Source: Phycisphaerae bacterium (GTDB lineage: Bacteria > Planctomycetota > Phycisphaerae > Phycisphaerales > SM1A02). From it: DNA of 64,000 bases. The notes under the pieces are model-generated. The model was not told where the DNA came from and did no database searches. It saw nothing but the letters and a program-made list of their open reading frames with translations. Positions 3,498 through 56,613 of the stretch are shown one piece after another (positions within the stretch are counted from its first letter, which is position 1; every line of letters begins with the position of its first letter). Both the position numbers and the translations under genes were made by a program. Location of the stretch: contig PKCS01000039.1 in NCBI GenBank assembly GCA_002862305.1, positions 1-64,000 on the forward strand. The letters are read 5' to 3'.

Positions 3498-4238
3498 TCA
3501 GTCGTCCTTGCCGGCCTCCGGCGCGGTCACCAGGGTGCCGATGCTGGTGTCCCCCGCGACCACCCGCTGGATGTTCCCCTGCTTCTTGAAGTCGAACACG
3601 CAGATCGGCATCCGATGCTCCATGCACATGGTCATCGCGGTGAGGTCCATGACCTTGAGCCGCCGCTTGATGGCGTCGTTGAAGGTCAGGTCCTCGAAGC
3701 GGGTCGCGTCGGGGTTGGTCGCCGGATCCTTGTCGTAGATCCCGTCGACCTTGGTGGCCTTGAGCAGGATGTCCGCCCCCAGCTCGATCGATCGCAACGC
3801 CGCGCAGGTGTCGGTGGTGAAGAACGGGTTCCCGGTGCCCGCGACCAGGATGACGATGCGGTTCTTCTCCAGGTGGCGAAGCGCGCGGGCCCGGATGAAG
3901 GATTCCGCCACCGAGCTCAGGTTGATGGCGCTCATCACCCGGGCCTCGTGGTTCCTGCTCTCGAGGGCCTCCTTCAGGGCGAGCCCGTTGATCACGGTCC
4001 CCAGCATGCCCATGTAGTCGGAGGTGGACTGGTCGAATCCGCTCTCGGTGGCGAGGGCCGCGCCGCGGATGATGTTCCCCCCGCCGACCACCACCGCGAT
4101 CTCCGCGCCCTGCTTGTGCGCCTCGGAGATCTCGTCCGCGATGATCATGAGTTCCTCGGGGGAGATGCCCAGGGAGCCCTCGGCGGCGAAGCTCTCCCCG
4201 CTGATCTTCAGGACCACTCGATGGTGCTTTCTACTCAT
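3498..4238 (-). CDS. pyrH: Uridylate (UMP) kinase
   Basis: Phosphorylates UMP to UDP with ATP, in pyrimidine nucleotide synthesis. The 246-residue product has the amino-acid-kinase fold motifs VVLKISGESF at the N-terminus, VVVGGGNIIRG for the phosphate loop, and ILLKATKVDGIYDKDP for UMP/ATP binding, all typical of bacterial PyrH. GAGG lies 8 nt before the ATG. The common upstream neighbours rpsB and tsf are not adjacent: the gene is divergent from the VWA/Exb cluster. It probably heads an operon with frr. Confidence 0.97.
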   Translation of the reverse strand: MSRKHHRVVLKISGESFAAEGSLGISPEELMIIADEISEAHKQGAEIAVVVGGGNIIRGAALATESGFDQSTSDYMGMLGTVINGLALKEALESRNHEARVMSAINLSSVAESFIRARALRHLEKNRIVILVAGTGNPFFTTDTCAALRSIELGADILLKATKVDGIYDKDPATNPDATRFEDLTFNDAIKRRLKVMDLTAMTMCMEHRMPICVFDFKKQGNIQRVVAGDTSIGTLVTAPEAGKDD

Positions 4239-4406: not shown

Positions 4407-5456
4407 GTGCACCAGACACCCCCAAACCCGAGTTCGACGCGGACCTCGCACCTGGAGGCGGAGGTGGCATCCCTCCGGGAGCAGCTCGACGAGCTGCGGG
4501 AGCTGCGCCGCCGCCGGAACCTCCGGAAGCTGGTGCTCCTCGGGCTGGCGGTCTCCATTCCCTTCCACCTCATGATCATCGCCTACCTCGCCAGCTACCG
4601 GACCGGCGGCTCCGGCAGCGGACCGGATGCCGGAGACGGGATCGAGTTCACGGTGCTCTCCTCCAGCGAACTCGAGGAGCTGCAGCAGGAGATCGAGCTC
4701 GAGGACGCGGTCACCAGCGAGCTGGAGCTCGATGAGTCGATGAGCTCGATGCTGGCCAGGCTCGACGACCAGATCGCGGCCGCCAGCCTCACCGAGCTCG
4801 ACGTCTCGGGTTCGATGGCCTCCCCCGGGGGCCTGGTGGGGTTCTCCGATTCGATGAAGGCCGACTCCGGGCTGCTCGGCTCGGCCTCGTTCTTCGGGAT
4901 CGGCTCCCGCGGACGCCGCTTCGGCTTCATCATCGACCTCTCCACCTCCATGCGGAACCCCATCTCCCGGTCGGGGGGGATCGGCTCCGAGCCGGAGCTG
5001 ACCAAGTTCGACCTCGCGGTTCGCCAGTTCTCGCAGACCATCGGCCGGCTCCCCGACTACGTGCAGGTCTACATGCTGCTCTTCGCCGGCAGCCTCGACA
5101 GCCTCAAGGCCCCGGCCTTCCAGCAGTCCTGGCTGTCGATGAACGACCGCAACAAGGAGCGACTCATGGCCTGGCTCTCCGAGCGGGTGCCGGAGGGCAG
5201 CACCGAACCCTACAAGGCCTTCCAGAGGATCTTCTCCCTGCGCAACCGTCCCGACGTGATCTTCTTCCTCACCGACGGCATCTTCGATGCGGACGTTCCC
5301 GACAAGATCGCCTCCCTCAACGGGAAGGGGCGACGGGTGGTGATCAACACCATCGCGCTCGGCGGGGGGGCGGATCTCGCCACCCTCGAGAAGATCGCCC
5401 GGGAAAGCGGGGGCCAGTGCGTCCGCTACCCACCCCGGCGGGAGGCGACACCATGA
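4407..5456 (+). CDS. Membrane-anchored von Willebrand factor A domain protein
   Basis: First gene of the eight-gene 4.4-14.6 kb cluster. The 349-residue product begins with a charged coiled-coil-like stretch (about 15-40), one membrane segment (about 41-63), an acidic Glu/Ser-rich spacer (80-130), and a VWA domain. The MIDAS metal-site motif DLSTS (177-181) and a later FLTDGIFD strand are visible, so metal-dependent ligand binding is plausible. Start is GTG at 4407; an in-frame ATG alternative lies only inside the membrane segment. Its stop overlaps the next ATG (ATGA). The N-terminal anchor suggests the VWA domain is periplasmic. The family occurs beside ExbB/ExbD genes in planctomycetes; its precise job is unknown. 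Confidence 0.85.
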   Translation: MHQTPPNPSSTRTSHLEAEVASLREQLDELRELRRRRNLRKLVLLGLAVSIPFHLMIIAYLASYRTGGSGSGPDAGDGIEFTVLSSSELEELQQEIELEDAVTSELELDESMSSMLARLDDQIAAASLTELDVSGSMASPGGLVGFSDSMKADSGLLGSASFFGIGSRGRRFGFIIDLSTSMRNPISRSGGIGSEPELTKFDLAVRQFSQTIGRLPDYVQVYMLLFAGSLDSLKAPAFQQSWLSMNDRNKERLMAWLSERVPEGSTEPYKAFQRIFSLRNRPDVIFFLTDGIFDADVPDKIASLNGKGRRVVINTIALGGGADLATLEKIARESGGQCVRYPPRREATP

Positions 5457-6637
5457 CGCACCTCCTGCTGGCCGGCCTGGTCGGTCTGCTGCCCCACGTG
5501 GTCGAGGCCCCGGCGGAGACGATCCTCCTCCGGGATCGCCTGGGAACGATCGAGGCCCGGCTGGTCGGGTTCGAGCCCGGCGGGGCCAGGATCCTGGTCG
5601 ACGCCCCGTCGCCCGCCGTCCCCCTCGAGGACGATCCCGCCGCCACGGTGCCCGAGCCACCGCCCGCGGTGGCACGCGTGGTCCCGTGGGACCGGATCCG
5701 GGGGATCGAGGGGATCGAGGACCCGGTCCTCGAGTCCCAGTGGGAAACCCGATGGCGTGCGGTCTCGGAGGATCTCTGGCGCGCCAGGAGTCGACTCCAG
5801 CGTGGCGATCGAGCCCTCGCGGAGCCGCTCTTCGCCCGCCATTTCGACCTGGTGACCTCGGATCCCGAGGGCAGCGAGCTCGCCCTCGTCGTCGCGGAAG
5901 GCCTCCTTCGCAGTCGTCTCCGCTCGGGCGAGGTCGAGTCCCTGGTGCCCGCCGCCCTCGAGACCGTCCGGCTGCGGCGCGCGGGCTTCGAGACCGATCG
6001 CTACCAGGCACTGCCTCCCGTCATCGACGAACGCCTCTGGCTGGTGCCCCGGCTGGCCCCGGTCCCCACCCGGGTCGATCTCGACCCGACGAGCATGCGG
6101 TCGATGGTCCGGCGCTGGTCGGAGGACCCCGACGAGGTGGTCTCGGGTCTCGCCCGGGCCTACGCGCGCATGCACGATCCCCCCGATGCCCTCCTGCTCG
6201 GTGGCGTGGACCCCGCCGGCCCCTCGCTGGTCCTCGCCGCCCTCGCGACCCGCTCCTCGGATCCCACCCAGCGGGCCGCCGCCCGCGAGCGCTTCCGGTC
6301 GCTGGTGCCCGGGGTGGACTCCGATCCCGCGTACGGACCGTGGCGAGGCTGGTTCCTCGGGACCTCCGCCCTGCTCGAGGAGGACCGACTGCTCGACCCC
6401 GCCCTGCTGGAGCTCCTCGCGCTCCCGGCGGAGCACCTCCACCACGATCCCGCCCTCGCCATCCGGGCCCTCTCGGTCGGCGCCGACGCCCTGGACGCCG
6501 CGGGGCGCGGTGGGGAGGCCGCGGTGCTCCGGCGGGAGATCACTCGACTTGACTTCACGGTCGCACCGGCACTCCCGGCGGCCCTCGGCAACGACCTCCC
6601 AGCATCGGACGCGCCGTCCGAGGAAGAGACCAGGTGA
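5453..6637 (+). CDS. Exported helical protein of the Exb/VWA cluster, function unknown
   Basis: Encodes 394 residues starting at an ATG that overlaps the VWA stop. Residues 1-19 form a signal peptide (hydrophobic LLLAGLVGLL, then VVEA). Residues 22-60 resemble a short beta-rich segment, followed by an Ala/Leu/Arg-rich, mostly helical region (about 100-380) that could be a TPR-like solenoid, although no repeat was delimited. The C-terminal tail is acidic. I do not recognise the family. Position between the VWA and the channel gene, with coupled starts, says it works with them, probably in the periplasm. Confidence 0.75.
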   Translation: MTHLLLAGLVGLLPHVVEAPAETILLRDRLGTIEARLVGFEPGGARILVDAPSPAVPLEDDPAATVPEPPPAVARVVPWDRIRGIEGIEDPVLESQWETRWRAVSEDLWRARSRLQRGDRALAEPLFARHFDLVTSDPEGSELALVVAEGLLRSRLRSGEVESLVPAALETVRLRRAGFETDRYQALPPVIDERLWLVPRLAPVPTRVDLDPTSMRSMVRRWSEDPDEVVSGLARAYARMHDPPDALLLGGVDPAGPSLVLAALATRSSDPTQRAAARERFRSLVPGVDSDPAYGPWRGWFLGTSALLEEDRLLDPALLELLALPAEHLHHDPALAIRALSVGADALDAAGRGGEAAVLRREITRLDFTVAPALPAALGNDLPASDAPSEEETR

Positions 6638-6644
6638 GCGAACC

Positions 6645-7388
6645 ATGAACCACCTCCAGACCCTGATCGTCTCCGCGGCACCCGCCGGCGGAAGCGGTTC
6701 CACCCTGTTGAAGTTCATCACGGACGGGGGGGTGATCGGCTACCTGCTGATCCTGCTCTCGGTGATCGCGCTGGTGCTGGTCGTGGTGCACGCGATCCAG
6801 ATCCGGAGGTCCCAGCTCATTCCCGAGGACCAGATCGAGGACCTCCAGGAACTGCTCGCCCGCGGTGCCTCCCAGCAGGCCCTCGACTACTGCCTCGAAC
6901 CCGCCAACGACAGCTTCCTGACCCGGGTCCTGGCCCCGGGCCTCACCCGCTTCCTGGGCTCGCCCTTCGGCGCCTTCGAGATCAAGACCGCCATCGAGGA
7001 CGCTGGCTCCGAGCAGACCGAACGGCTCTACCGATCCACCGACGCCCTGGGCGTCATCGGCGCGATCGCGCCCCTGCTCGGCCTGCTGGGCACGGTCTAC
7101 GGGATGATCAGCGCCTTCTCGACCATCGGCAGCGGGGGGGGCGGGCCCACCAACCACGAGCAGCTCGCCGCCAACATCAGCCTCGCGCTGGTGACCACCA
7201 TGCAGGGACTCGTGGTGGCGATCCCCTGCGTGATCCTGTACTCCTTCTTCCGCAACCGCATCGACGCGATCGCCGCCGATGCCGGGAGTCGACTCGACTC
7301 GCTCACCATGCTCCTCGAGTCCTCCCGGGCCCCGGTTCCGGACGCCGGGAACGGTCCGGCGAACCCCGGCAGCGGAGCGGGACGGTGA
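6645..7388 (+). CDS. MotA/TolQ/ExbB-type proton channel protein
   Basis: Inner-membrane channel subunit that, with ExbD/TolR partners, converts proton flow into movement of a periplasmic element. The 247-residue product has a first membrane segment at about 30-52 (YLLILLSVIALVLVVVHAI). A cytoplasmic loop follows, then the family core APLLGLLGTVYGMISAF and the third segment ISLALVTTMQGLVVAIP, with the conserved Thr residues. The ATG at 6645 is the first in-frame start after the upstream stop. Its TGA overlaps the GTG start of the next gene. It could serve as TolQ, ExbB or a planctomycete-specific analogue; there is no TonB or TolA in this cluster. Confidence 0.92.
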   Translation: MNHLQTLIVSAAPAGGSGSTLLKFITDGGVIGYLLILLSVIALVLVVVHAIQIRRSQLIPEDQIEDLQELLARGASQQALDYCLEPANDSFLTRVLAPGLTRFLGSPFGAFEIKTAIEDAGSEQTERLYRSTDALGVIGAIAPLLGLLGTVYGMISAFSTIGSGGGGPTNHEQLAANISLALVTTMQGLVVAIPCVILYSFFRNRIDAIAADAGSRLDSLTMLLESSRAPVPDAGNGPANPGSGAGR

Positions 7389-7807
7389 GGTTCTCCCGAA
7401 GCAGGCGCCACGGCGGATTCCTCTCGCTCGACATGACCCCCATGATCGACATCGTGTTCCTCCTGCTCATCTTCTTCCTCTGGACCATGCAGCTGGTCCA
7501 GGACTCGCGGACCGAACTGGAGCTTCCCCGGGAGGCCGGTGACCAGTCGGCCCGGACCGAACCGGCGGGGCTGATCGTGAACCTGCTGGCCGACGGCACC
7601 ATCGTGGAGGGCGACGAACCCATCAGCCTCGATCGACTCCGCATCCTCGCGCTGTCCACCTCGTCGACCCCGGGGGACGAGCGTCGTCCCCGTCCCCTGA
7701 TCCGCGCGGACCGCAACGCACCGGCCGAGCGGCTCAACCAGATCATGAACGTCCTCAGGCAGTCGGGACTCTCCGGGATCCGCCTCGCCACCAGTCCGAA
7801 CAGCTGA
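7385..7807 (+). CDS. ExbD/TolR-type protein, copy 1
   Basis: Partner of the ExbB/TolQ-like channel. The 140-residue product has a short basic cytoplasmic N-terminus, then SLDMTPMIDIVFLLLIFFLW, one membrane helix carrying the essential proton-coupling Asp (D22), and a periplasmic domain of about 95 residues ending in SGIRLATSPNS. GTG start, overlapping the channel gene's TGA (GTGA). Copy 2 follows after 14 nt, so the complex may contain two different ExbD-like subunits. Confidence 0.92.
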   Translation: MRFSRSRRHGGFLSLDMTPMIDIVFLLLIFFLWTMQLVQDSRTELELPREAGDQSARTEPAGLIVNLLADGTIVEGDEPISLDRLRILALSTSSTPGDERRPRPLIRADRNAPAERLNQIMNVLRQSGLSGIRLATSPNS

Positions 7808-7821
7808 ACGAGTACCCGACC

Positions 7822-8247
7822 TTGCGCATCAAGACCAGGACCAACCGACGACGCAGCGCACGACTCACCCTGAACATGGCGAGCATGATCGACTGCACGT
7901 TCCTCCTGCTGGCGTACTTCCTGCTGACCATCGTGGTGCTCGAGCCGGAGGACCAGCTGGCCTCCAACCTGCAACCCGACCGGACCTCCGCCTCCGGGTC
8001 GAACTCGGACTTCCAGCCCCAGATCATCGACGTGGAGCTGGTCGATTCCCAGCCCGGCTACCGGCTGGGCTCCCGGCTCTTCCGCGATCCCGACTCGCTC
8101 CGACAGGCGCTCGAGCAGCTGCACCGGGATTCGGGGCTCTTCGTCCGCGTGCATCCCGGACCCGACGTCGGGTTCGCCGCCTCGGCGATGCAGGCGGGCC
8201 GGGACGCGGGATTCACCAGCGTCACCTACGTTCCCGAGGGTGGGTGA
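7822..8247 (+). CDS. ExbD/TolR-type protein, copy 2
   Basis: Second ExbD-like gene: 141 residues with a very basic N-terminus, membrane helix ASMIDCTFLLLAYFLLTIVV carrying the conserved Asp (D24), and a periplasmic domain that ends in FTSVTYVPEGG. It is clearly diverged from copy 1, with little similarity outside the helix. The start is TTG at 7822, the only start that keeps the whole basic N-terminus; an unusual start may lower its yield relative to copy 1. Three bases separate it from the next gene. Confidence 0.88.
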   Translation: MRIKTRTNRRRSARLTLNMASMIDCTFLLLAYFLLTIVVLEPEDQLASNLQPDRTSASGSNSDFQPQIIDVELVDSQPGYRLGSRLFRDPDSLRQALEQLHRDSGLFVRVHPGPDVGFAASAMQAGRDAGFTSVTYVPEGG

Positions 8248-8250
8248 ACG

Positions 8251-10866
8251 ATGGCTGGCCGCCCCTTCGTCCGCATCCTCGCACCGCTGCTCTCGATCCT
8301 GGTGGGCCTTCCCGCGATCGCCGTCCCCGCCCCGCAGGAGACCGTCGACACCTGGCTCGAGGAACGGGGCCTCGATCGACTGCGCATGCACGCGCTCCGA
8401 GCGCGGGTCGCGGACCGTTCCCTGCGCGATGACCAGCGTGAACGGCTCACCGAGCAGCTGCTGGCGGTCTACCGCAAGTTGCTCGCCGAATCACCGGATC
8501 CCGCCTTCCGCGATGAACTCACGGAGCTCATCGGCCTCATCCTCGATGAGATCAGCGTGGTGCAGGGAGACCCCATCCGCCTTGACCTCTACACCTCGGA
8601 GTGGCGGGCACTGATCACCTCCGGGCTCAACGCCCTCCTGCTGCGCCGGGGCGGGGAGGTCGACGACCAGGCCCTCCTGGCGTCGATGCTCGACCTGTCC
8701 GACCGCATCGACGAGCTGCTGCGTCGCACCACCACCCGATCCCGTCGGGCGAACCAGGAGCTCCGGGAGGCCCAGGGAGCCGAGGTCCTCCGTCGCACTC
8801 GTTCCTTCGACGAGCTCGAGGACACCCTGCGCAAGCTTCGAAGCCTCAGTGGGTGGGTGCACGCCTACCTCGGCTGGTTCACCGACGACGTGGCCCACGC
8901 CAACGTCGCCCAGAGGATGTTCGCCTCCCTCCTCTCGAGCGACGGCTCGCCCTTCGTGGTGCCTTCCGACGGCGAGGTCTCCGTCCAGCGCCGATCGGAG
9001 GACTGGTACGCCGAACTGATCATCGGGATGGCGATCGCCCAGGCCCCGGAGGCGTCCTTCGCCACCGTCGAGGCCTGGCTCGACCTGCTTGCCATCGAGT
9101 CCGCCTCCGAATCCGCGCGTCGGCAGGTGCCCTTCTACCGGCTGGCCCTGCTGCTCGGTGGCGACGACCCGGATCGCTTCCGGGAGGCGGAGCGCCTGCT
9201 CGGCGAACTCGGCCCCGCGGCCTCCTCCGACTGCCTCCGACTCGCCTGCATCGAGGCGCTGGTGCACGCCGAGGATGATCCCGGGGCGGCCGCGATGGTG
9301 CCGGCGCTGCTGGAGCGACTCGCCGACCGCGGGGAGATCCTCGAGCTGGTGGATCTCTCCACCCGCTTCCCGATCGACTCGCTGCCCCCGGAGACGTCGC
9401 TCTTCCACTTCATGCGTGGCTGCCGTTCCGCGATCCAGTCACGTTCGGAGGACGCCCGCGGCGAGGACGCCGCGGCCCGGGGGACGGCCCTCGCCGCCCT
9501 CGCGGATCTCGACCTCGTCCTCGAGGATGCCGGCGAGGCGACCGATCCCCTGGCCCGGCAGGCCCTGGTGCTCCGCGCCGAACTCAACCAGTTCCTGGGT
9601 CGACCGCTGGCCGCCGCCCGCGATTTCTCGTCCGCGGCGGGGCGTGCCGAGGGAACGGAGGCGGGGGACCTGCTCTGGCGAGGGATCGCGGCGCTCCCGC
9701 CCACCGACCCGCCCGCCGCCGACCCCGAGGTCGATCCGCTGAGGACCAGCCTCATCGACCGGCTGCTCTCCGCGCACCCCACCCACCCGAGGGCCCAGGC
9801 CGCGCGGCTGCTTCGGCTCGAGATGCAACAGGAGTACGGATTGCGGGACGCCGAGGAACTGCTCCAGACGACCAACGACCCCGCCACCAGCGGGCTGGCA
9901 CTTCGGAAGGCCGCCTCGATCCTGTACCAGGCCTGGTCCGAGGCCTCGGGGGCCCTGCGTGCGGAACTCGGGGCACGGTTCATCGAACTCGTGGACCAGC
10001 CGGAGGTGGTCTCCGCCGAGGGACGGTTCGCGGAGCCCGACCTCGGGCTCCTGCTCGCCCTCCTCAGGGTCTCCCTGCAGTCCGAGCCCCCCGATCTCGC
10101 CCGGTCCCGCGGGGTCATCGACGCCATCGACCTCGCCTCCGCCGAGCGACCCGCGATCCTCGCGGATCGCGGGCTCGAGTTCGAGGCGCTCCGCTTCGAG
10201 CACGACCTGCTCGCTCCCACCCCCGACCTGTCCCTCGTCGTGGAGCGGCTCGGCCGTTTCGCGGAGTCGCCCGAGGATCCCGCCTCCAGGCGCTGTGCCC
10301 TGCTCGCGGTCCTCGCCGCGAACCGCCACCTCGACGGGAATCCCACGCCGCCCTGGACCTCCCGGCATCGCGCCGCGCTCTCGGCCACCCGGACCGCCGT
10401 GGCGATGCTCGTCGGCGAATCACCCTCCGTCGAGCAGGTGTCAGACCCCAGGAACTGGCAGCTCGTCCGCTCCCTCGCGGCCGCGGAGTACCTCGCGCAC
10501 CTCGGGGACGGCGACCAGGCCTCGTTGCTCCGCGCCCACGACCTCTACGCCGTCCTGCTGGAGGAACGTCCCATGGAACGCAGTGCGCTCTCGGGTTACG
10601 CCAGGGCGTCGACCGCGCTGGGCCGGGACGCCGAGGCGCTTCGCGCCTGGCGAGTCCTGATGAACAACACCCCCGAGGGAAGTGACGAGTTCCTGGAGAG
10701 CAAGTACCACACCCTGAGCCTCCTCGCCGAGACCGACCGCGAACTCGTCCGATCGATCCTCGAGCAGCACCTCGTCCTCTACCCCGACTACGGCCCATCC
10801 CCCTGGGGGCCGGAGCTGGCATCCCTCCACCGTGCGCTCGGGACACGCGGAAGGGGGGGGCCATGA
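8251..10866 (+). CDS. Large exported helical (TPR-like) protein, function unknown
   Basis: Encodes 871 residues: signal peptide at 1-26 (LAPLLSILVGLPAIA, then VPA), then an almost entirely helical, Leu/Ala/Glu/Arg-rich protein. Stretches near the C-terminus such as LYAVLLEERPMERSALSGYARASTALGRDAEALRAW (quoted in part) look like tetratricopeptide units, so a scaffold role is likely. No catalytic motif was found. The ATG is 3 nt after the ExbD-like gene, and its TGA overlaps the next ATG. Probably a periplasmic or outer-membrane-associated element of the same machine. Confidence 0.75.
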   Translation: MAGRPFVRILAPLLSILVGLPAIAVPAPQETVDTWLEERGLDRLRMHALRARVADRSLRDDQRERLTEQLLAVYRKLLAESPDPAFRDELTELIGLILDEISVVQGDPIRLDLYTSEWRALITSGLNALLLRRGGEVDDQALLASMLDLSDRIDELLRRTTTRSRRANQELREAQGAEVLRRTRSFDELEDTLRKLRSLSGWVHAYLGWFTDDVAHANVAQRMFASLLSSDGSPFVVPSDGEVSVQRRSEDWYAELIIGMAIAQAPEASFATVEAWLDLLAIESASESARRQVPFYRLALLLGGDDPDRFREAERLLGELGPAASSDCLRLACIEALVHAEDDPGAAAMVPALLERLADRGEILELVDLSTRFPIDSLPPETSLFHFMRGCRSAIQSRSEDARGEDAAARGTALAALADLDLVLEDAGEATDPLARQALVLRAELNQFLGRPLAAARDFSSAAGRAEGTEAGDLLWRGIAALPPTDPPAADPEVDPLRTSLIDRLLSAHPTHPRAQAARLLRLEMQQEYGLRDAEELLQTTNDPATSGLALRKAASILYQAWSEASGALRAELGARFIELVDQPEVVSAEGRFAEPDLGLLLALLRVSLQSEPPDLARSRGVIDAIDLASAERPAILADRGLEFEALRFEHDLLAPTPDLSLVVERLGRFAESPEDPASRRCALLAVLAANRHLDGNPTPPWTSRHRAALSATRTAVAMLVGESPSVEQVSDPRNWQLVRSLAAAEYLAHLGDGDQASLLRAHDLYAVLLEERPMERSALSGYARASTALGRDAEALRAWRVLMNNTPEGSDEFLESKYHTLSLLAETDRELVRSILEQHLVLYPDYGPSPWGPELASLHRALGTRGRGGP

Positions 10867-13826
10867 CGCATTCGCCACGCATGCGGTTCCTCGGCCTGGG
10901 CGAGGACGCGACCGACCACCAACTGCTCGGACTCCCCGCCGGGTCGACGCCTTCGGAGGCCGAGATCCGCGACGCCCTCCAGTCCCGACTGCGGTACCTC
11001 GATCGTCACCCCGGGGGGACCGGGGAGGACGCCATCGTGGTCCGGGAGGCCTTGCTGACGGCCGCCCTCAGGATCGCCGGCCTCCGTCCGGACTCCCCGT
11101 CCCTCCCGGATCCGCCGTCGGCCCGTCCCTCCCCGGCCCCGCCCCCGGGTCCCGGCGCCCCCGGCGCGATCACCGACTTCGACCGGGAGATCCTCGCCAT
11201 CCTGGTCGGCAACGGCGGGTGGAACCCCGCGAGTCGCGGGAGCCTCGTCGCGCTCGCCGCTCGCCACGGCGTCCACCCCTCCGCCTTCCTGAGGATCATC
11301 CAGGGATTGTCCAGGATGCTCCACGACGGCCAGTTCGCCCAGTTGCTCGGACCCGAGGTCGCCTCACGGCAGAGTGGAGCGACCGCGCTGCCCGCCCGCA
11401 GGCAGCCCTTGACCGACCCGGAGCCAACGAGCCTCACGCCGAGGTCCGGTGCTCGCGGCCGACGCGGTCGATCATCGACGCCATGGCTGCTGCTGCTGCC
11501 ATTGCTCCTGGCGGGCACGATGGCCCTGGTCGCTGCCATGCTCCTGCGATCCCGTTCCACGCCTCCCGCGGCGATTCCGGTTCCGGTCGATCCGGTCCTT
11601 CCCGTGGAGGCTCCGGTCGCGACCGAGGCCCCGATCGATCCCGGGGTGCTCCCGGTCGATCCGGTTCGTCCAGGTCCGGCCGCCGCGTCGATGCCCACGG
11701 TGGGGGAGATCCTCTGGTCTCCCTACCCCGCCTTCGACTCCGCGGGTACGAGTCCGCTCGCCCCGACCCCCCTCGAACTCCAGGAGCGGCGTGCCGCCCT
11801 CGATCGCCTGGCGGGCCGGATCGAGATCACCCGTGGCCTGGTGGGCCGGGAAGTGCTGGAGGAGTACGGGACGCTGGTCCTCGAGTCGGGGAACCAGTGG
11901 CCGCTGCTCGACTCCGGCCCTCGCTACCAGCTGATCCGCTCGAGTCGCGGACCGCTGCTGGCCGCCCGGGATCCGGCGGTCCGGGTGCAGCTGCTGGAGG
12001 TGCTCGAGGCACGCCTCGAGGACGCCTCCGGCGCCCTCGATCCCGCCTCGCTCTGGCTGCGAGGCTGGATCAGTGGGTTGCTGGGAACCCTGGTCGGCGA
12101 TCCCGACCAGCCCAAGGAGTTTCGCTGGCGGATTCGCCGGATCATCGGCGGTGCGGACCTCGATGCGCGGTCCACCACCCTCGGGGTGCAGGCCGGATTC
12201 GATCGCCACGCCGGCCGGTCGCTCGATGACTCGTTCGAGGACGTGCTCGGCTCCGCGATCGCCCGCCGTCCGGACACCGGTCGGCTCCTGGAGTCATGGC
12301 TGCTCGCGGAACGGGCCGTGCAGCATCCGGCGGTGTTCGAATCGGTGCTCCTGGATGCGATCACCCTCATCCTCTCCGGGGGGACCTTCTCCCCGGGGGA
12401 TGGTGTGGTCACCCTGCTGGCGGCCCTGGTCCGGGAGCTCGAGCTTCGTCGGGCGACGAATCCCGAGCTGGTGCTGCTGAACTTCGAGGACTGGTTCGGG
12501 GACCCCGAACTCGATTCCCGGAACCTCAACATCCTGACCAACCTGGTGCGCGCCTCGGGCACCGCACCCTGGTGGGACGCCTCGATGGTGCTCGAGGCCG
12601 ATGCCGGACCGGCGCGTCGGGAGGCGTTCGTCGCCACCCTCCGGGGGGCGTGGCCGCGATCCGGTGCGGGCGGGGGCTCGCGTGGCGTCCCGATCGAGGT
12701 GGGGGACCTGCTCAGGATCGACGAGCTGATGCGCCTCACCGAACGGCAACGCACCACCGACCTCGACCAGATGCGGAGGCTGCTGGTCAGCGGCGAGGTG
12801 TCCGCGGCGACTTCCGCCTTCGTGGAGGGGGATCGCCAGCTCGGACTCCGGCTCCTTGCTCGCGCCGAGGCCCTCTGGAACCAGCCACCGGTCGCCGACG
12901 GGATCTACGAACCCCTGCGGGGTTCCGGCACCGACGGATCGAGGGACCTCGGTTCCGCGGGGGATCCGCGCTTCCGCGTCGACGGCTCCTGGCGAAGGGC
13001 GTGGACCGCGGCCGGCAGCGACCTCTCCGCCCGGCGGGCCACCCTTCGCGAGCTGGGACAGTTCCCACCCGATACCGGGCTCGGACCTCGGGACGCCGGG
13101 GCCCTCGCGGAAGCCGCACTCCGGTACCACCCCACCACGCGGTCCATCGCCCAGGAGGTGATCCTCGAGCACTTCCCCCAGAGCGAGGCCATCATGCTCG
13201 GGTTGCTGAACGCCTTCGAGGGACGCCGGAACCGCGACGTCGCGGAGTTCCTGGACCGACTGCTCGCCCGGGAATCCCTTCCCGAGCGGGACTCCGAGCT
13301 CTGGGCGCAGCGGGTACGCGTCGCCCTGGTGAGGAACGCACTGCTGCTGCAGACCTCCGACCTGCACGATGTCGAGAACCTCTCCGACCTCTACGTGCGG
13401 CAGCTGGTCCGCAGGCTCGAGCAGGCCTCCAACGGCCTGCTCGCGGTCGGACTCGACGAATCACCCCAGGAACTCCTCGCTCAGTACGCCGCGCTGCTGC
13501 TGGAGCGGGCACGCGCGGTCTACGTCACCGAACCCGTCCCCGCGACGCTCGAGGAACTCGCCCGCCGCAAGGTGCTCCACCGCTCCACCGCGGACACCCC
13601 CCTCAAGCTGGTGGTCGCGGAACTCCTGGACGTCGCCGGGCTCTCCGCGTACCTGACCGCGGCCCTCCGACCGGACCTGGGACCGGAACTCGAGCGGATG
13701 CACCGGCAGCTGCTGCGGGAGGCGAGGACCGCCTCCAGCGTCCTCGAGCAGATGATCATCCTCGAGCGAGCGATCGCCCGATACACCTCGATGCAGCTGC
13801 AGGCCACCGGGGAGGCCGCCCGGTGA
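10863..13826 (+). CDS. Membrane protein with cytoplasmic J-like N-terminus and large exported region
   Basis: Encodes 987 residues. Residues 1-75 (FLGLGEDATDHQLLGL and following helices) resemble the degenerate J-domain-like opening of many planctomycete proteins, but there is no HPD motif. Pro-rich linker 76-102; a small helical module 103-160; one membrane segment at about 207-229 (LLLLPLLLAGTMALVAAMLL); then a Pro/Val-rich linker and about 700 helical residues without a recognised domain. The predicted topology is cytoplasmic N-terminus and periplasmic C-terminus, so it could carry signals across the inner membrane. ATG overlaps the previous stop; its stop overlaps the next GTG. Confidence 0.75.
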   Translation: MTHSPRMRFLGLGEDATDHQLLGLPAGSTPSEAEIRDALQSRLRYLDRHPGGTGEDAIVVREALLTAALRIAGLRPDSPSLPDPPSARPSPAPPPGPGAPGAITDFDREILAILVGNGGWNPASRGSLVALAARHGVHPSAFLRIIQGLSRMLHDGQFAQLLGPEVASRQSGATALPARRQPLTDPEPTSLTPRSGARGRRGRSSTPWLLLLPLLLAGTMALVAAMLLRSRSTPPAAIPVPVDPVLPVEAPVATEAPIDPGVLPVDPVRPGPAAASMPTVGEILWSPYPAFDSAGTSPLAPTPLELQERRAALDRLAGRIEITRGLVGREVLEEYGTLVLESGNQWPLLDSGPRYQLIRSSRGPLLAARDPAVRVQLLEVLEARLEDASGALDPASLWLRGWISGLLGTLVGDPDQPKEFRWRIRRIIGGADLDARSTTLGVQAGFDRHAGRSLDDSFEDVLGSAIARRPDTGRLLESWLLAERAVQHPAVFESVLLDAITLILSGGTFSPGDGVVTLLAALVRELELRRATNPELVLLNFEDWFGDPELDSRNLNILTNLVRASGTAPWWDASMVLEADAGPARREAFVATLRGAWPRSGAGGGSRGVPIEVGDLLRIDELMRLTERQRTTDLDQMRRLLVSGEVSAATSAFVEGDRQLGLRLLARAEALWNQPPVADGIYEPLRGSGTDGSRDLGSAGDPRFRVDGSWRRAWTAAGSDLSARRATLRELGQFPPDTGLGPRDAGALAEAALRYHPTTRSIAQEVILEHFPQSEAIMLGLLNAFEGRRNRDVAEFLDRLLARESLPERDSELWAQRVRVALVRNALLLQTSDLHDVENLSDLYVRQLVRRLEQASNGLLAVGLDESPQELLAQYAALLLERARAVYVTEPVPATLEELARRKVLHRSTADTPLKLVVAELLDVAGLSAYLTAALRPDLGPELERMHRQLLREARTASSVLEQMIILERAIARYTSMQLQATGEAAR

Positions 13827-14593
13827 GGGGGGGTGCCACGACGTTCCTCGCGTGCGGCGGCCTGCTGCTGGGCGCGACGGCACCGCGACCCCTCGCGATC
13901 CCCGACCCGGACTGGTCGGTGCGCCTCGAGCGCCTCGAGCCCTCGCGCCCCCTTGAGTACTTCGAGCTCGCGGAGGAGATCTGCGACGCCTCCGACGATC
14001 CCCGCGAGACCGGACTCGCCCTGCAGCTCTTCGCCCTCGCCGGGCAGCTGGACTTCGAGTCGCTGGGCTACAGCTCGATCCTCGCCATCCGGCACCACAC
14101 CACGGATCCCGACAAGAAGGCCTACCTCGAGGTGGCCGCAGGCCTCCTCTCGAATCGCGACCTGTTCGAACCGCCCGCCGGATTCCTCCCCCTGGTCTCG
14201 GAGGAGGATCGCATCGCCTTCGGCCGGATGCTCGCCGCGTGGCGCATGGGGCGACAGCCCGAGGTCTCCAAGCTGGTCCAGGTACCCGGGGTCCGTGCCC
14301 TGCTCGAGCGCTACGCCGAGGTGCTGGGCCGCGATCCCCTGACCCTGGTCGAGCAGCTCTCCTCGCGGCTGCCCTCGCTCGATGCACGCCAGCTTCGTCG
14401 CCAGCTGCTTCTGGAGTGGGCGGTCCTCGACCGGGGCGGACTCAACTGGTCCGCGGAACTCTCCTTCAGCGGGGGTGCGCCCCTGCAGATCATCGACCTC
14501 ATCGACTTCCAGGAACTCCTCGGCGTGGACGTCGGGCTCCCGTACTGGCGGGAGGGTGGATGGACCTCGGGGGCCACGCCCGGCGAGGCGTGA
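13823..14593 (+). CDS. Exported protein closing the Exb/VWA cluster, function unknown
   Basis: 256 residues from a GTG that overlaps the upstream stop (GTGA). The start VRGGATTFLACGGLLLGATA is a signal peptide; the rest is helical and rich in Leu, Ala and Glu with no recognised domain, ending GGWTSGATPGEA. The open frame continues far upstream, but that part is antisense-like sequence inside the previous gene and is ignored. Last gene of the cluster; it converges with the VKOR gene 30 nt away, where no clear terminator hairpin is seen. Confidence 0.7.
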   Translation: MRGGATTFLACGGLLLGATAPRPLAIPDPDWSVRLERLEPSRPLEYFELAEEICDASDDPRETGLALQLFALAGQLDFESLGYSSILAIRHHTTDPDKKAYLEVAAGLLSNRDLFEPPAGFLPLVSEEDRIAFGRMLAAWRMGRQPEVSKLVQVPGVRALLERYAEVLGRDPLTLVEQLSSRLPSLDARQLRRQLLLEWAVLDRGGLNWSAELSFSGGAPLQIIDLIDFQELLGVDVGLPYWREGGWTSGATPGEA

Positions 14594-48491: not shown

Positions 48492-49778
48492 ATGCTCAGA
48501 TCAAAAATTCAAGCCATCGTTGTCTTCACCTTATCTGTTTGGGTCTCATGTGGGATCTCGGGTCCCTCGTTGACGTCGGGTGCCCAGGACACCGAATTCG
48601 ACAATGGCGATCCAGCGAATGATGCGACGGTGCTGGGGCCACTTGGTACGGGCACCCTGAAGGACCTGCCGATCAACCCGATCCACGTCGAGTTGCTCGA
48701 CCTCGCGTTCCAGGCCCCTTCCCTGATGCCTCGAAATCCCCACATCAAGAATCGATGTCGGGCCCAGGAACGGGTGGTGGGCTTTGCGCTCGAGCTCGGG
48801 CAGCCTTCCAGGGCGATCCGCTACACCACCGAGATCGACAATTGGCGACGTGCCCTCGCTTACACGGACTTCCTTGAGTACGCGATCAGGCACGGTGCTC
48901 CCGAACTTGCACCCGAGTACCTGCGACGAGCAAGGCTGGTCTCCGAGGGCGCGGAAGACTGGCGACTCGAGCGAATTCTTGCCGGGATCGCCCGTGTTCA
49001 GCTCATGCTCGGCGATATCGAACAGTCTCAGGAGACCGGCGAGGGGGTGACCGGATCCGATCGGGGGGCGATCAACGCGGTTGTCAGCGGACCCGATGAT
49101 GCAAAGGCATACGCGCGACAACTCGCCCTCGTGGATGCCGCGATCGAGGCCTCGGACTTCGAACTCATCCGGAGCTCCGTCAAGGGGATCACCGAGTTCT
49201 ACGAGAGTACCTATTCCGACCTCGATCGTCGTACCGAAATCGAGGGTCGGATCCAGCGGGTCGTCGGGCTCAAACTGCCCGAACCGGTCAAGGTCGAGGT
49301 GCTGGTCGGCATGGGTGAGGCAGCTGCCGCGAACGGTGACCTCCAGAAGACCGGGCAGTTCGCGGATCAGGCGTTCGAAATCACCCAGGCCATCGGCTAC
49401 CGGGCCGAGATTCTGGTGCCGATGCTCGGCGATGTCGGGCGAATCACCGCCCTGGCCGGAAACAAGGGCGCGGCCGAGGAGCGACTGGCTGCCGGACTCG
49501 AGGCGTACGAGCGGGGCAAGCCCACGATCATGGGGATCTTCCGGACCGAGGCCCTCGAGCCCGTTGCGCGGGGGTACATGGCTCTAGGCGATTCATCCAC
49601 TGCCGAGACGGTCTACCTGTCCGCATTGAATGAAGCGATCGACAATCCCAATTCCCGACCGCGGGCGGAGGACTTCTCCGCCCTGTGCTGTTCCATGGCG
49701 GTCTCCCGTTTCGAACCCGATGCGGACCTCATGGAGCGGCTGCGCACGATCTGCCGGGAATTGGGAGATCCGTGGTAG
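48492..49778 (+). CDS. Exported TPR-like protein heading the TonB operon
   Basis: 428 residues: signal peptide about 1-31 (AIVVFTLSVWVSCGISG), then a helical solenoid with TPR-like pairs (RVVGFALELGQPSRAIRYT, LVGMGEAAAANGDLQKTGQF, AEERLAAGLEAYERGKPTI, GYMALGDSSTAETVYLSAL). The start at ATG 48492 begins the signal peptide. Its end overlaps the receptor gene by 7 nt, so the two are coupled. Probably periplasmic, interacting with the transport complex; no enzyme motif. Confidence 0.75.
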   Translation: MLRSKIQAIVVFTLSVWVSCGISGPSLTSGAQDTEFDNGDPANDATVLGPLGTGTLKDLPINPIHVELLDLAFQAPSLMPRNPHIKNRCRAQERVVGFALELGQPSRAIRYTTEIDNWRRALAYTDFLEYAIRHGAPELAPEYLRRARLVSEGAEDWRLERILAGIARVQLMLGDIEQSQETGEGVTGSDRGAINAVVSGPDDAKAYARQLALVDAAIEASDFELIRSSVKGITEFYESTYSDLDRRTEIEGRIQRVVGLKLPEPVKVEVLVGMGEAAAANGDLQKTGQFADQAFEITQAIGYRAEILVPMLGDVGRITALAGNKGAAEERLAAGLEAYERGKPTIMGIFRTEALEPVARGYMALGDSSTAETVYLSALNEAIDNPNSRPRAEDFSALCCSMAVSRFEPDADLMERLRTICRELGDPW

Positions 49779-52700
49779 CGTTCTCGCCACTACTCCAAGT
49801 TGGTTTCGTCCTGTTGCTGATCGTCACCCTGAGTGCTCACGCGCATGCCCAGGAGAACGGTTCGATCCGCGGTACCGTCACCGATCAGGACTTCGACCAG
49901 TCTCTGGGTCTGGTGGAAGTCAGCATCATCGAGACCCAGCAGACGGTCGCCACGACGCCGGAGGGGAACTACGTGTTTCCCGAGGTCGAACCCGGGACCT
50001 ACACCTTGATATTCAACAAGTCGGGATACACCCGGCGATTGCGGGGTGACGTACTGGTCCAGAGCGGCAAGGTCACCGAGGTCAACGCCGACCTCGCAGG
50101 TGAATTCACCGAAATGGAGGAGTTCATCGTCGAGGAGCTGAGCCTGGGTGGCGCCACCGAGCTCGGCTTGCTGCGCCTGCGCCTCGAGAGCCCCGCCTTG
50201 CTCGATTCGATCAGTTCCGAATTCATGTCCAAGGCCGGAGCCAGTGATGCAGCCAGTGCGTTGAAACTGGTTTCAGGCGCCTCGGTCCAGGACGGCAAGT
50301 ACGCAGTGGTTCGCGGGCTCCCCGACCGGTACGTCAATTCCCAGCTCAACGGGGTGCGGATGCCCACTTCGGATGCGGAAAAACGTGCGGTTCAGCTCGA
50401 CCAGTTCCCCAGTTCCGTCATCGAGAGCATCCAGGTCTCCAAGACCTTCACTCCCGACCAGCAGGGTGATGCGTCCGGCGGTGCAGTCGACATCATCCTC
50501 AAGGGTATTCCCGACCAGACGTTCATTTCGCTGAAGAGCGAGTACACCTGGAACAGCAACACCAGTGGACGAAGCGACTTCCTGAGTTACCGGGGCGCCG
50601 GGTTCAACTTCTGGGGCGATCCAACCCGACCGGTCGGTCCGTTCCCCGCCGGCACGGTCTGGCCCGGTGCGGTCGGGGTCTCCACCACCAATGCGCCCAT
50701 CGATTACAAGTGGGAACTCGCCACCGGAGGCCGTCTGGAACTTGAGGATGGCGTCACCGTCGGTGGCATGATGAGTTTCGTCAACAAGCACGAGAGTCAG
50801 CTCATCGATGATGGAATCCAGGACGGGTGGGGTGTGCGCAAGAGTCCGGTCGCCGGTCAGCCGGCGGTGAACCCCCAGTGGGAACCGCTGCCCTGGCAGA
50901 AGGATGGGACCGACTTCTACACCGAGCTCTACGACTGGAAGCAGGGGACCCGGACGACGCAGTGGGGGACGATGCTCAGTGGAGGCTTCGATTCCGAGCT
51001 GTTCACGTTCAGTGCCACGTACCTCAGCACCAAGATCGACGAGGACCAGGCGACCCAGCTCGACAACACCCGTGGCAAGGAATACTTCTTTCCCGGCTAC
51101 AGCATCTCGGACCCGGTGGCCAACTGGGATGCGGTCCAGAGCGGTAACGCCAACATCTCGCCCTGGACCCGCCTGCAGACGATCGGATACACCCAGCGCA
51201 CCACCGAGACCCGGATCTTCACCGGCAGGAACGTCATACCCCTTGGTGAAACAGAGGCGTTCTTCTCCAAGAACGACCAGTTCGTATTCCTCAATCCCAC
51301 GATCGACTGGCAGTTCTCGACCAGCGAGGCCCGGTTCTACCAACCTGACAAGACCCAGTTCGCCGCCACCTGGCAGCCGGGGTACACCCGGCCCATAGGG
51401 CAAGGGGCGGCGTGGCTCGCGGTGGGTAACGCGTGGACCGGCCTGCCTCCGGTTCCCAACATCAACTTCGGATACATCCAGCGGATCTACAAGGAGATCA
51501 CCGAGAAGAGCAGCCAGAGCGAGGGTGAACTCACCCTTCCCTTCCTGATCGACCAGGAGCTGGAGGGTGAGTTCAAGATCGGCATCTTCGATGACAAGGT
51601 CACCCGGAACTACTCCCAGCAGACGTTCCAGGTCAACGCGGGCGCGAACGTGCCGGTCGGGCAGTGGACGGTGGGAGCGAACGTTTTTCCGGGGACCCAG
51701 GGGAACCCGCCTCCGCCGGCAGCCGTCGACTGGGCTGGATCGACCCCTTCGTTCGAGGACAACTGGGCGGATGTCTGGCCCGGAATCACCCCTGGCGGTG
51801 GGGTCAACGACGCGGTGATGGTGGATCCGGGAATCGACGTCGACTACACGGGCGAACAGCGGGTCAAGGGTTTCTTCGGCATGATGGAGTTGCCCCTCAG
51901 TGACACCCTAGACATCATCGGCGGTGCCCGTGTCGAAACCACCCGGCTCAAGACCACCGTGATTCCCGAGGCGAACGTCCAGTGGGTGCCGGACCCCTTC
52001 AACCAGACGCAAGGTCTGGTCCAGCTCAATCCGGGGGATGCCGATGTCGACTACGTGCAGTCCCGGATCCTGCCGTCCATCGCCCTCCAGTACGACAATG
52101 GTGAGGACCTGGTCCTCCGCCTCGCGTACAACGAGACGATCGCCCGACAGACCTTTCGTGAGATCACACCGGTCATCCAGCAGGAGTATGCCGGGGGACC
52201 GATCTTCGTCGGCAACGCGGATCTGGTCGAAACCACCCTCCAGAACTTCGATGCCCGCCTCGACATCACGCCCTACGAAGGTGGATTGATCTCGCTGAGC
52301 GGTTTCTACAAGTACATGGTCGAACCGATCGAAAACATCTCCCTTCAGGTGGTCGGGCTCGGCAGCGTGACCACGCCCGTCAACTACCCTGATGGCTACT
52401 TGTACGGATTCGAGTTCGAATGCCGACAGGACCTAGGCGTGCTCTTCGGCCTCGAGGGCCTGTCGGTCGGAGGCAACTTCACCAAGATCAACTCCCAGGT
52501 CACCCTCTCGAACGTCGAGCGGGAAAACCTCGTACTGGCCGGGTATCCGGCGACGACCCGCCAGATGACCGGCGCGCCCGACTACCTCCTGAACGCGTTC
52601 CTCAACTTCAGCCTCGAGGAGACCGGTACCAACTTCTCGATCTTCTACACCCTCAAGGGCCAGACCCTGCAGTCCGGGGGAGCGGCGGCTCGTGGTCGCC

Positions 52701-52927
52701 AGTTCTACACGCCCAGCATCTACGAAGCACCGATCGACACCCTCAACGTGACGATCTCGCAGGAGATCTTCGGGCCCCTGACTCTGGACCTGAAGTTCAG
52801 GAACCTCACCAACCCCGATTTCAGGACGTTCTACCAGGACCCGAACATCTCCGGTACCAGAACCTACACCTCCTACACCCGAGGCATCGACGTGTCGGTG
52901 GGCCTCAATCTCTCCTTTGACTTCTGA
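49772..52927 (+). CDS. TonB-dependent outer-membrane receptor with carboxypeptidase-regulatory-like N-domain
   Basis: 1051 residues from a GTG with GGGAG 4-5 nt upstream; signal peptide about 1-27 (VLLLIVTLSAHAHA). Residues 29-110 are a CarboxypepD_reg-like beta-sandwich (GSIRGTVTDQDFDQSLGLVE, TPEGNYVFPEVEPGTYTL). EEFIV (116-120) is a likely TonB box. The plug (about 150-270) contains GKYAVVRGLPDRYVNSQLNG and PSSVIESIQVSKTFTPDQQGD; the rest is a 22-strand-type barrel ending in GLNLSFDF with the terminal Phe. This receptor class imports large substrates such as oligosaccharides, metal chelates or phosphorylated compounds; the ligand is unknown. Confidence 0.92.
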   Translation: MVAFSPLLQVGFVLLLIVTLSAHAHAQENGSIRGTVTDQDFDQSLGLVEVSIIETQQTVATTPEGNYVFPEVEPGTYTLIFNKSGYTRRLRGDVLVQSGKVTEVNADLAGEFTEMEEFIVEELSLGGATELGLLRLRLESPALLDSISSEFMSKAGASDAASALKLVSGASVQDGKYAVVRGLPDRYVNSQLNGVRMPTSDAEKRAVQLDQFPSSVIESIQVSKTFTPDQQGDASGGAVDIILKGIPDQTFISLKSEYTWNSNTSGRSDFLSYRGAGFNFWGDPTRPVGPFPAGTVWPGAVGVSTTNAPIDYKWELATGGRLELEDGVTVGGMMSFVNKHESQLIDDGIQDGWGVRKSPVAGQPAVNPQWEPLPWQKDGTDFYTELYDWKQGTRTTQWGTMLSGGFDSELFTFSATYLSTKIDEDQATQLDNTRGKEYFFPGYSISDPVANWDAVQSGNANISPWTRLQTIGYTQRTTETRIFTGRNVIPLGETEAFFSKNDQFVFLNPTIDWQFSTSEARFYQPDKTQFAATWQPGYTRPIGQGAAWLAVGNAWTGLPPVPNINFGYIQRIYKEITEKSSQSEGELTLPFLIDQELEGEFKIGIFDDKVTRNYSQQTFQVNAGANVPVGQWTVGANVFPGTQGNPPPPAAVDWAGSTPSFEDNWADVWPGITPGGGVNDAVMVDPGIDVDYTGEQRVKGFFGMMELPLSDTLDIIGGARVETTRLKTTVIPEANVQWVPDPFNQTQGLVQLNPGDADVDYVQSRILPSIALQYDNGEDLVLRLAYNETIARQTFREITPVIQQEYAGGPIFVGNADLVETTLQNFDARLDITPYEGGLISLSGFYKYMVEPIENISLQVVGLGSVTTPVNYPDGYLYGFEFECRQDLGVLFGLEGLSVGGNFTKINSQVTLSNVERENLVLAGYPATTRQMTGAPDYLLNAFLNFSLEETGTNFSIFYTLKGQTLQSGGAAARGRQFYTPSIYEAPIDTLNVTISQEIFGPLTLDLKFRNLTNPDFRTFYQDPNISGTRTYTSYTRGIDVSVGLNLSFDF

Positions 52928-52951
52928 CCCTCGAATGAAAGGCTCCTTGCT

Positions 52952-53791
52952 ATGAGTCCCAAGAACGAACTCCTGCGCCCGACGGACCGCGACCCTTCGG
53001 AACACCGCGCCTCGCCCAAGGCCATGGCGTGCCTTGCCGGCATCTTGTCGTTGTTCATGATGGGGGGGGGCGCTGCCGCAGGACCGGTACAGGATTCCGT
53101 GGATGTCGAGGACACCCGAGCCACGCTTTCCGAATGGATCGAGACCAAGCGGCTCATATCCAAGGAAAAGAAGGATTGGAAGCTGTCCCGGGAGGTCCTT
53201 TCGGATCGCATCGAGCTGGTGCGGAGGGAGATCGAGGCCACCCGGGGGAAGATCCGGGATGCGGAGGAGAGCGTCTCGACGGCCGACGCGAAGCGCGTGG
53301 AGCTGATGACCGAGGAGGAACGACTCAAGGAGACGGCGAAGCTGCTGGAGGACCTGATTGCCGGCTACGAGCAGCGAACTCGCACGTTGCTGCCGAGGCT
53401 TCCACAACACGTCCGCCAGCACCTCAAGCCGATCACCCAGGAGCTTCCCGAGGAAGGTGAGGAGACAACCCTTTCCCTGACCAAGCGCTACCAGAACGTG
53501 GTCGGAATCCTCGACCAGATCAACAAGTTCAATCGCGAGGTGAAGGTGACGAGCGAGGTTCGCGACCTGGGAGGCGGGACGAAGTCCGAAGTGACCGTGA
53601 TCTACCTCGGCATCGCGTACGGCTTCTACGTCAATGGCAACGAGGACGTATCGGGTGTCGGAACTGGAAACGAGACGGTCTGGGAATGGTCCCCCGACAA
53701 CGACATCGCACCCGAGGTCGCTTCAGCCGTGCGGATTCTCAACAACGAGGAGGTCGCTTCCTTCGTTCCCCTCCCGGTCGAGATCAAGTGA
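52952..53791 (+). CDS. DUF3450 family exported coiled-coil protein
   Basis: 279 residues. Hydrophobic export segment at about 24-43 (AMACLAGILSLFMMGGGAAA) after a 23-residue polar start. A coiled coil follows (about 58-140, KRLISKEKKDWKLSREVL, EEERLKETAKLLEDL), then a C-terminal beta domain with TVIYLGIAYGFYVNGNEDVSG. This matches DUF3450, which in many Gram-negatives precedes the TtpC/ExbB genes of TonB2-type systems, exactly as here. Role unproven; probably periplasmic assistance of the motor. Confidence 0.88.
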   Translation: MSPKNELLRPTDRDPSEHRASPKAMACLAGILSLFMMGGGAAAGPVQDSVDVEDTRATLSEWIETKRLISKEKKDWKLSREVLSDRIELVRREIEATRGKIRDAEESVSTADAKRVELMTEEERLKETAKLLEDLIAGYEQRTRTLLPRLPQHVRQHLKPITQELPEEGEETTLSLTKRYQNVVGILDQINKFNREVKVTSEVRDLGGGTKSEVTVIYLGIAYGFYVNGNEDVSGVGTGNETVWEWSPDNDIAPEVASAVRILNNEEVASFVPLPVEIK

Positions 53792-53802
53792 GGAGCCCCG
53801 TC

Positions 53803-55485: not shown

Positions 55486-56159
55486 AGATGAACACCGATC
55501 CCAACATCCCGGTGGATGATGCAGGGGCGACTGGCTTCCCGACGGCCCTCGAGACGCTCGTGGGCGAGGGCATCCAGATGTGGCTGGGTGGTGGCTGGGG
55601 CATGATCGCCCTGTCCATCGTCGCATTCGTGATGTTCTGCGTCGGCCTGAGCGTGTTGCTCAAGATCTATCGTGCGGGCCTCTTCCGCGTCCCGGCCCGA
55701 ACATGGGTCAAGTGGCTCGATCACCCCGAACAGAGACAGGGCTCGGTGGGTCGACTCATCCAGGGCCTGGCCGGCAAGACCAGGCTCAAGGACGTCGCGC
55801 ACGCGATCGATGCGATTCGAATCGGCGAGATTGAGCCATTCGACCGTGAACTCAGGGTCATGAAGGTCTGTGTCGGCGCTGCGCCGTTGCTGGGACTCCT
55901 CGGTACCGTCACGGGGATGCTGTCCACCTTCGACGCCCTCTCCACCGGATCCGGGGGCGACAAGACCATGGAGTTGGTTGCAGCCGGCATCTCGGAAGCG
56001 TTGATCACCACCGAGACCGGGCTGGTCATCGCCCTGCCCGGTCTCTTCTTTCACTTCTTCCTAAGCCGCAAGTCCCAGGCGAGCAAGCGTTTCGTCGCGC
56101 AACTCGAATCCGTCTGCAACCAACGTGTCCTCAAGGGCACGGTGGCGGCGGTGAATTGA
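55482..56159 (+). CDS. ExbB-like proton channel protein (short form)
   Basis: 225 residues: membrane helix about 38-60 (GGGWGMIALSIVAFVMFCVG), cytoplasmic loop, then GAAPLLGLLGTVTGMLSTF and ISEALITTETGLVIALPGLFFHFFL with the conserved Thr residues. It forms the proton channel of the TonB2-type motor together with ExbD. Overlaps the long ExbB gene by 4 nt, so the two are made in coupled amounts. Confidence 0.93.
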   Translation: MKMNTDPNIPVDDAGATGFPTALETLVGEGIQMWLGGGWGMIALSIVAFVMFCVGLSVLLKIYRAGLFRVPARTWVKWLDHPEQRQGSVGRLIQGLAGKTRLKDVAHAIDAIRIGEIEPFDRELRVMKVCVGAAPLLGLLGTVTGMLSTFDALSTGSGGDKTMELVAAGISEALITTETGLVIALPGLFFHFFLSRKSQASKRFVAQLESVCNQRVLKGTVAAVN

Positions 56160-56186
56160 CTGCAGTCCCAGTAAGGAGCCTTTCAC

Positions 56187-56594
56187 ATGGGTAGATTCCG
56201 CCAATCAGCAGACGAATCGGATGAGACCAGCGTCGACATATCCCCCCTGATCGACTGCGTGTTCATCCTGCTGATCTTCTTCATCGTCACCACGACCTTC
56301 GTGGAGGAGACCGGGGTCGAGGTCGACAAGCCTCAGGCCGCCGCTTCGGTGCAGTTGGAGAAGCAGAGCATCCTGATCGCGATCACCAACGAGGGCGATG
56401 TGGTCCATGCCGGAAAGAACATCGGGGTGGGGGGGGTGCAGCCAGTGGTCAAGCGCGCCCTTCAGGCGGAGGATGTTCCCGTGATCATCCAGGCTGATCG
56501 CGTCGCCCAGTCCGGCCTGATGGTCGAGGTCATCGGTGAGGCCAAGCTGGCAGGTGCCCGAAAGGTCAGCATCTCCACGAGGACCGGAAGCTGA
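56187..56594 (+). CDS. ExbD-like protein of the TonB2-type system
   Basis: 135 residues: ETSVDISPLIDCVFILLIFFIV membrane helix with the proton-coupling Asp (D23), then a periplasmic domain ending in AGARKVSISTRTGS. AAGGAG lies 8 nt before the ATG. It is different from the two ExbD-like proteins at 7.4-8.2 kb and belongs to this operon only. Confidence 0.93.
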   Translation: MGRFRQSADESDETSVDISPLIDCVFILLIFFIVTTTFVEETGVEVDKPQAAASVQLEKQSILIAITNEGDVVHAGKNIGVGGVQPVVKRALQAEDVPVIIQADRVAQSGLMVEVIGEAKLAGARKVSISTRTGS

Positions 56595-56613
56595 GCCGGG
56601 AGTGCCACTGTCC

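Follow-up and report, generated by a model that had tools for sequence, protein, structure and literature searches.

A conserved eight-gene operon of Phycisphaerales-type planctomycetes encodes a predicted VWA force transducer beside an ExbBD-type motor

The window, which is the whole 64,000-nucleotide stretch of DNA analysed here, contains between positions 4407 and 14593 eight tightly packed genes on the + strand, designated g1 to g8. These genes and the two that adjoin them are:

3498..4235, - strand: pyrH (UMP kinase), divergent neighbour of g1
4407..5456, + strand: g1, predicted VWA force transducer with a MIDAS VWA domain
5453..6637, + strand: g2, exported protein with a small β domain followed by a TPR-like α-solenoid
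6645..7388, + strand: g3, TolQ/ExbB-like channel subunit
7385..7807, + strand: g4, first ExbD/TolR-like subunit, with a conserved Asp in its transmembrane (TM) helix
7822..8247, + strand: g5, second, diverged ExbD/TolR-like subunit, also with a conserved TM Asp
8251..10866, + strand: g6, exported TPR solenoid of 871 aa
10863..13826, + strand: g7, protein of 987 aa with a J-like N-terminus, one TM helix and a periplasmic α-solenoid
13823..14593, + strand: g8, small exported helical protein of 256 aa
14624..16495, - strand: DsbA/VKOR gene, adjoining the g8 end of the operon

From g1 to g8 the successive junctions measure -4, +7, -4, +14, +3, -4 and -4 nt. This bears out the eight-gene cluster with spacings of -4 to +14 nt reported in an earlier note on this DNA, a description that proved accurate in nearly every detail; the junctions are tight and overlapping as it stated, and our count of the 4-nt stop-start overlaps is four (ATGA, GTGA, ATGA and GTGA). 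Pfam matches were obtained for g1 (VWA_3, above cut-off), g3 (MotA_ExbB, 3e-28), g4 (ExbD, 6e-24) and g5 (ExbD, 5e-9), while g2, g6, g7 and g8 gave no confident Pfam family.

Tight gene packing is common in GC-rich bacterial genomes, and the close spacing could in principle reflect an ordinary run of genes, or chance clustering, with no shared function. The synteny rules this out, leaving it a negligible probability: the eight-gene order repeats in dozens of genomes from two classes, and in the more distant family the genes that flank it are different. The complete g1-g8 order was found in 39 of the 65 loci compared, using profiles built from the fetched loci, and extends to two loci (L118 and L120) of family f73, which lies outside the window's class; gene order is therefore conserved beyond close relatives, on which the earlier proposal of an envelope machine depended. 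In two further f73 loci (L117 and L119) the only missing piece is a g7 that passes the profile. Named records carrying the operon are Phycisphaerales and Phycisphaerae metagenome-assembled genomes. A shorter core, g1-g3-g4-g5-g6 (VWA-ExbB-ExbD-ExbD-TPR), reaches more widely into other Planctomycetota. A contig scan with ExbB gave 80 loci, many of them ordinary ExbBD sets, and the ExbD profile was built from motif-anchored sequences. Within the searched set of the window's own genome and 60 relatives, the VWA protein is present in 55 of 61 genomes and g7 in 38 of 61; across the phylum, the spread of g7 is read from the fetched loci only. In the order sample, g6 was matched at E<1e-15 in 27 of the 29 genomes of the window's family (f1) and in all listed genomes of families f2-f4; the f5 and f6 genomes of that sample gave no g6 match below the same threshold. 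Matches resembling g6 in family f32 were set aside, as they covered the C-terminal part only and no motor genes were found nearby. In two other loci (L140 and L144) the operon comprises g2-g6 and g8, with no VWA gene found adjoining.

The chromosomal position of the operon is also conserved. In most relatives, as in the window, it lies divergently beside pyrH, and a homologue of pyrH or one of frr, which encodes the ribosome recycling factor, adjoins it in about 37-41 loci, such that pyrH and its adjoining frr mark a fixed position. This fits vertical inheritance at a single site within the order. The one f73 locus examined for its flanks (L118) has no pyrH or frr there and carries uroporphyrinogen genes instead.

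ExbB (g3) is the most conserved protein of the operon, with a mean column identity of 58%. The pore Thr region, which is invariant, and the Pro of TM3 can both be aligned with TolQ, and an invariant Ser39 in TM1 corresponds roughly, by spacing only, to the position of ExbB Ser34; no equivalent of ExbB Trp38 is conserved in the g3 alignment. The membrane Asp is kept in both g4 and g5. These data, together with the Pfam assignments, confirm the TolQ/ExbB-like channel and two ExbD-like proteins recognised earlier.

The protein encoded by g1 comprises, in order, a coiled cytoplasmic N-terminus, a TM helix, a D-box, a flexible linker and the MIDAS VWA domain. The TM helix reads S50-X3-H54-X6-L61, and thus has Leu at the appropriate position (His+7) of the SHLS motif; the final Ser of that motif has no match in the window protein, which has Arg65. 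It is through this Ser and His that, in E. coli, TonB contacts ExbB and TolA contacts TolQ, and in the Ton system the Leu and last Ser of SHLS are less conserved (PMC12215075). Ser-X3-His occurs in the TM helix of 69 of 72 VWA homologues. In alignment A3, which spans sequences of 21-79% identity to the window protein, Ser50 does not vary and 35 of 36 rows have His54. In two loci of genus g28 (L071 and L254) Asn replaces this motor-binding His, and L254 keeps the motor genes. The D-box of TonB, which is bound by ExbD, has the pattern hydrophobic-polar-hydrophobic-polar-hydrophobic-hydrophobic-polar (PMC10907165). The linker segment I79EFTVLS85 of g1 matches this pattern in full and starts at His+25, the same distance as in E. 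coli TonB (His20+25; QPISVTMVTPAD, residues 43-54), while the D-box of TolA starts at His22+28. The strict pattern, written by us from the published motif, was found in 31 of 69 distinct linkers compared with a mean of 2.5 and a maximum of 7 in 500 shuffles, in a set of related genomes that are not independent.

The VWA domain retains an intact metal site (DxSxS..T..D: D177xS179xS181, T266 and D290), whose residues are invariant in the rows of A3, and the g1 profile matches solved VWA domains. The membrane-anchored VWA protein with an intact site described in the earlier note is thus upheld, while its statement that the cluster lacks a TonB or TolA counterpart is not, as g1 itself carries an SHLS-type Ser-X3-His and a D-box. 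The presence of both coupling elements points to the VWA domain as the business end of a TonB-like protein, and on its sequence g1 is a predicted transducer of the TonB/TolA type in which that domain replaces the TonB C-terminal domain.

Force transducers of this kind have been foreseen. Williams-Jones et al. (2025; PMC12204202) predicted vWA transducers with SHLS and a motor box in the PVC group, Planctomycetes included, whose genes adjoin tolQ, two heterologous tolR and a TPR gene; their role is not known, gliding being among the suggestions. The window operon resembles this family in its g1, with an SHLS-type TM helix, a motor box/D-box and a C-terminal VWA domain, and in the neighbours of that gene, which are tolQ-like, two tolR-like and TPR genes. 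It differs in that the VWA gene comes first, whereas in the PVC group it frequently, although not definingly, follows the TPR and motor genes (PMC12204202). In addition, the window type has four solenoid or helical proteins rather than one TPR gene, a fixed pyrH-frr locus and motor-less derivatives. The operon displays the testable defining features of the predicted family and is placed there by description. The earlier view of an undescribed machine therefore holds in part: the core idea was already predicted in 2025, as a VWA transducer with a TPR gene, tolQ and two tolR alongside (PMC12204202), while the novelty lies in the eight-gene form and its four solenoid or helical members, the fixed position, the near-universality in four families and the series of motor losses.

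The four additional proteins are predominantly solenoids. Members of the g6 family have matches among TPR families and among TPR proteins of solved structure. An AlphaFold2 model of g2 (pLDDT 88) comprises a small β domain and a TPR-like solenoid, for which a Foldseek search of the PDB returned generic TPR matches only, none below E 1e-3. The model of g7 contains an N-terminal J-like fold, a helical domain, a TM helix (208-228), a disordered linker and an α-solenoid (303-976); its pLDDT of 81 and pTM of 0.43 indicate that the overall arrangement is uncertain, and the fold search of the PDB gave generic HEAT/ARM matches only, none below E 1e-3. The single membrane crossing and J-like end noted previously for this 987-aa protein are therefore reproduced by the model, and the structure prediction that had been suggested adds the solenoid without a specific structural relative. 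The HPD motif is absent from the window protein, and among 29 sequences HP is often kept and D is present in few; judged by its sequence, the J-like end is not a working J domain. The small g8 protein looks exported and helical; in some families it carries a four-Cys insert resembling a zinc ribbon (L068, L069, L075 and L079).

The motor residues, both coupling motifs, the intact metal site and the conserved operon can be read directly from the sequences, and lead us to propose, with a probability of about 0.7, that the operon encodes a proton-powered trans-envelope pulling machine in which a VWA-tipped transducer works on an ExbBD-type motor. In this model g3 would assemble into a ring of the ExbB/TolQ type, and g4 and g5 would supply a dimeric, probably heterodimeric, ExbD axle. 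The Ser-X3-His helix of the transducer would dock it on this ring, and the ExbD periplasmic domains would hold it at the D-box, as with TonB and TolA, while its MIDAS tip would use a metal ion to grip a partner in the periplasm or outer membrane. The periplasmic g2, g6 and g8 and the membrane-anchored g7 would then be scaffold or target proteins. We infer that the proteins form a complex, that it pulls, and which solenoid it grips.

Natural variation in the operon bears on this model. Motor genes are missing from the operon in five loci overall, with most of the remaining genes kept. This tells against the model, since the operon evidently does not always require a motor of its own; the unconserved Trp38 position of g3 and the absence of an adjoining VWA gene in L140 and L144 also weigh against it. 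In four f2 loci (L079, L133, L244 and L245) g3-g5 are gone and g1, g2, g6, g7 and g8 remain; in a quick g6 tree these represent at least three separate losses. Ser-X3-His is kept in all four, suggesting continued docking of another motor. By contrast, the D-box is present in none of the four motor-less f2 loci compared with 20 of 22 with a motor (Fisher P=0.001, with one widened residue class; 19 of 22 and P=0.0023 without it, both P values being optimistic owing to the relatedness of the genomes). Two loci (L250 and L251) have the motor and lack the strict D-box. Of the four f2 genomes with a motor-less operon, three have no ExbB copies other than lower-scoring ones (about 133 bits), and the fourth (G470) has an ExbB of 219 bits elsewhere. 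An f1 genome whose operon lacks the motor (G028), and which has an ExbB-ExbD-ExbD set on another contig, keeps the D-box. The decay in f2 and the retention in G028 indicate that the D-box seems to be tied to a dedicated ExbD pair. These repeated losses provide a natural experiment on transducer-motor coevolution. In L072, g2 and g6 share one open frame (5771-10024) after loss of g3-g5, possibly a gene fusion.

The same losses raise the view that the locus is a sensor of tension or envelope state, in which the motor primes or tunes a VWA/solenoid scaffold and g7 signals to its cytoplasmic J-like end. Retention of g1, g2, g6, g7 and g8 after several motor losses favours a sensor, as does the way g7 links a cytoplasmic domain with a periplasmic solenoid. 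The persistence of the motor-docking motif in motor-less loci and the second ExbB-ExbD-ExbD set of G028 argue against it, and we consider a sensor unlikely.

The proposed pulling machine differs from the known systems that use such motors. It shares with the Ton system the motor type, the Ser-X3-His docking motif and a D-box at equal distance from the His, but has two different ExbD proteins, and no TonB C-terminal domain or TonB-dependent receptor family was detected among the eight proteins with Pfam and NCBIfam. Its TonB-type coupling motifs would also suit Ton-like uptake or export, with the VWA tip opening an outer-membrane gate or moving a polymer and the TPR proteins handling cargo. Such a role appears quite improbable: the operon contains no receptor or barrel, and the same genome has a receptor-bearing Ton-type cluster of its own elsewhere (49.7-58.8 kb). 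That cluster (49685-58827 of the window) comprises a TonB-dependent receptor, DUF3450, two ExbB, one of which is much extended at its N-terminus, ExbD and a TPR protein.

The operon shares with Tol-Pal a TolQ/TolR-like motor, TolA-like coupling and a periplasmic TPR protein, CpoB of Tol-Pal being also TPR-like. No TolB or Pal family was found in the eight proteins with Pfam, and a TolB_N profile, which a diverged TolB may escape, matched none of 101 genomes of the order. Gene content and synteny rule out a standard Ton or Tol system, and a proton-motor envelope machine distinct from both, as first proposed from the sequence, is well supported. Three OmpA-domain proteins are encoded elsewhere in the window's genome (G000), two, possibly Pal-like, on contig C26 and a third on C36 beside a MotA-like gene.

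The motor make-up, one TolQ-like and two TolR-like proteins, resembles AglR-AglQ-AglS of Myxococcus gliding, in which one ring protein is combined with two TolR-like proteins (PMC9389320). Together with the TPR and VWA parts, and the suggestion of Williams-Jones et al. (PMC12204202), this would accommodate an Agl/Glt-like gliding or surface-adhesion motor that moves a periplasmic TPR/VWA scaffold. In contrast to AglRQS-Glt, however, the window operon is a widespread core locus. It is near-universal in four families, is carried by genomes as small as 1.9-2.4 Mb and occupies a fixed housekeeping position, all of which fit a core function over a lifestyle function; Pfam and NCBIfam, read by family name, gave no Glt-named family among the eight proteins. 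Gliding is thus an improbable role.

For the proposed pulling machine we tentatively favour a Tol-Pal-like role in envelope upkeep, as suggested by a core, fixed and widely kept force machine in genomes with no TolB detected. A more specific proposal, doubtful as a whole, is that in Phycisphaerales-type planctomycetes the operon is a core envelope-coupling machine standing in for Tol-Pal, in which the VWA domain would grip a four-protein solenoid scaffold and the motor could be exchanged for another ExbBD set. If Tol-Pal is indeed replaced, the operon would explain how proton force is coupled to the outer envelope in an order with no detectable TolB. In any case the sequences of dozens of genomes lend support to a class of transducer that had only been predicted, and place it as a core locus, held in position, in a large bacterial group with unusual envelopes.

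At the far end of the window lies a 1021-aa open reading frame (60058-63123) with no NCBIfam match. Between 48000 and 64000 the GC content falls from about 0.69 to 0.62, coding GC3 also drops and the AT skew changes; this part of the window is possibly acquired DNA.
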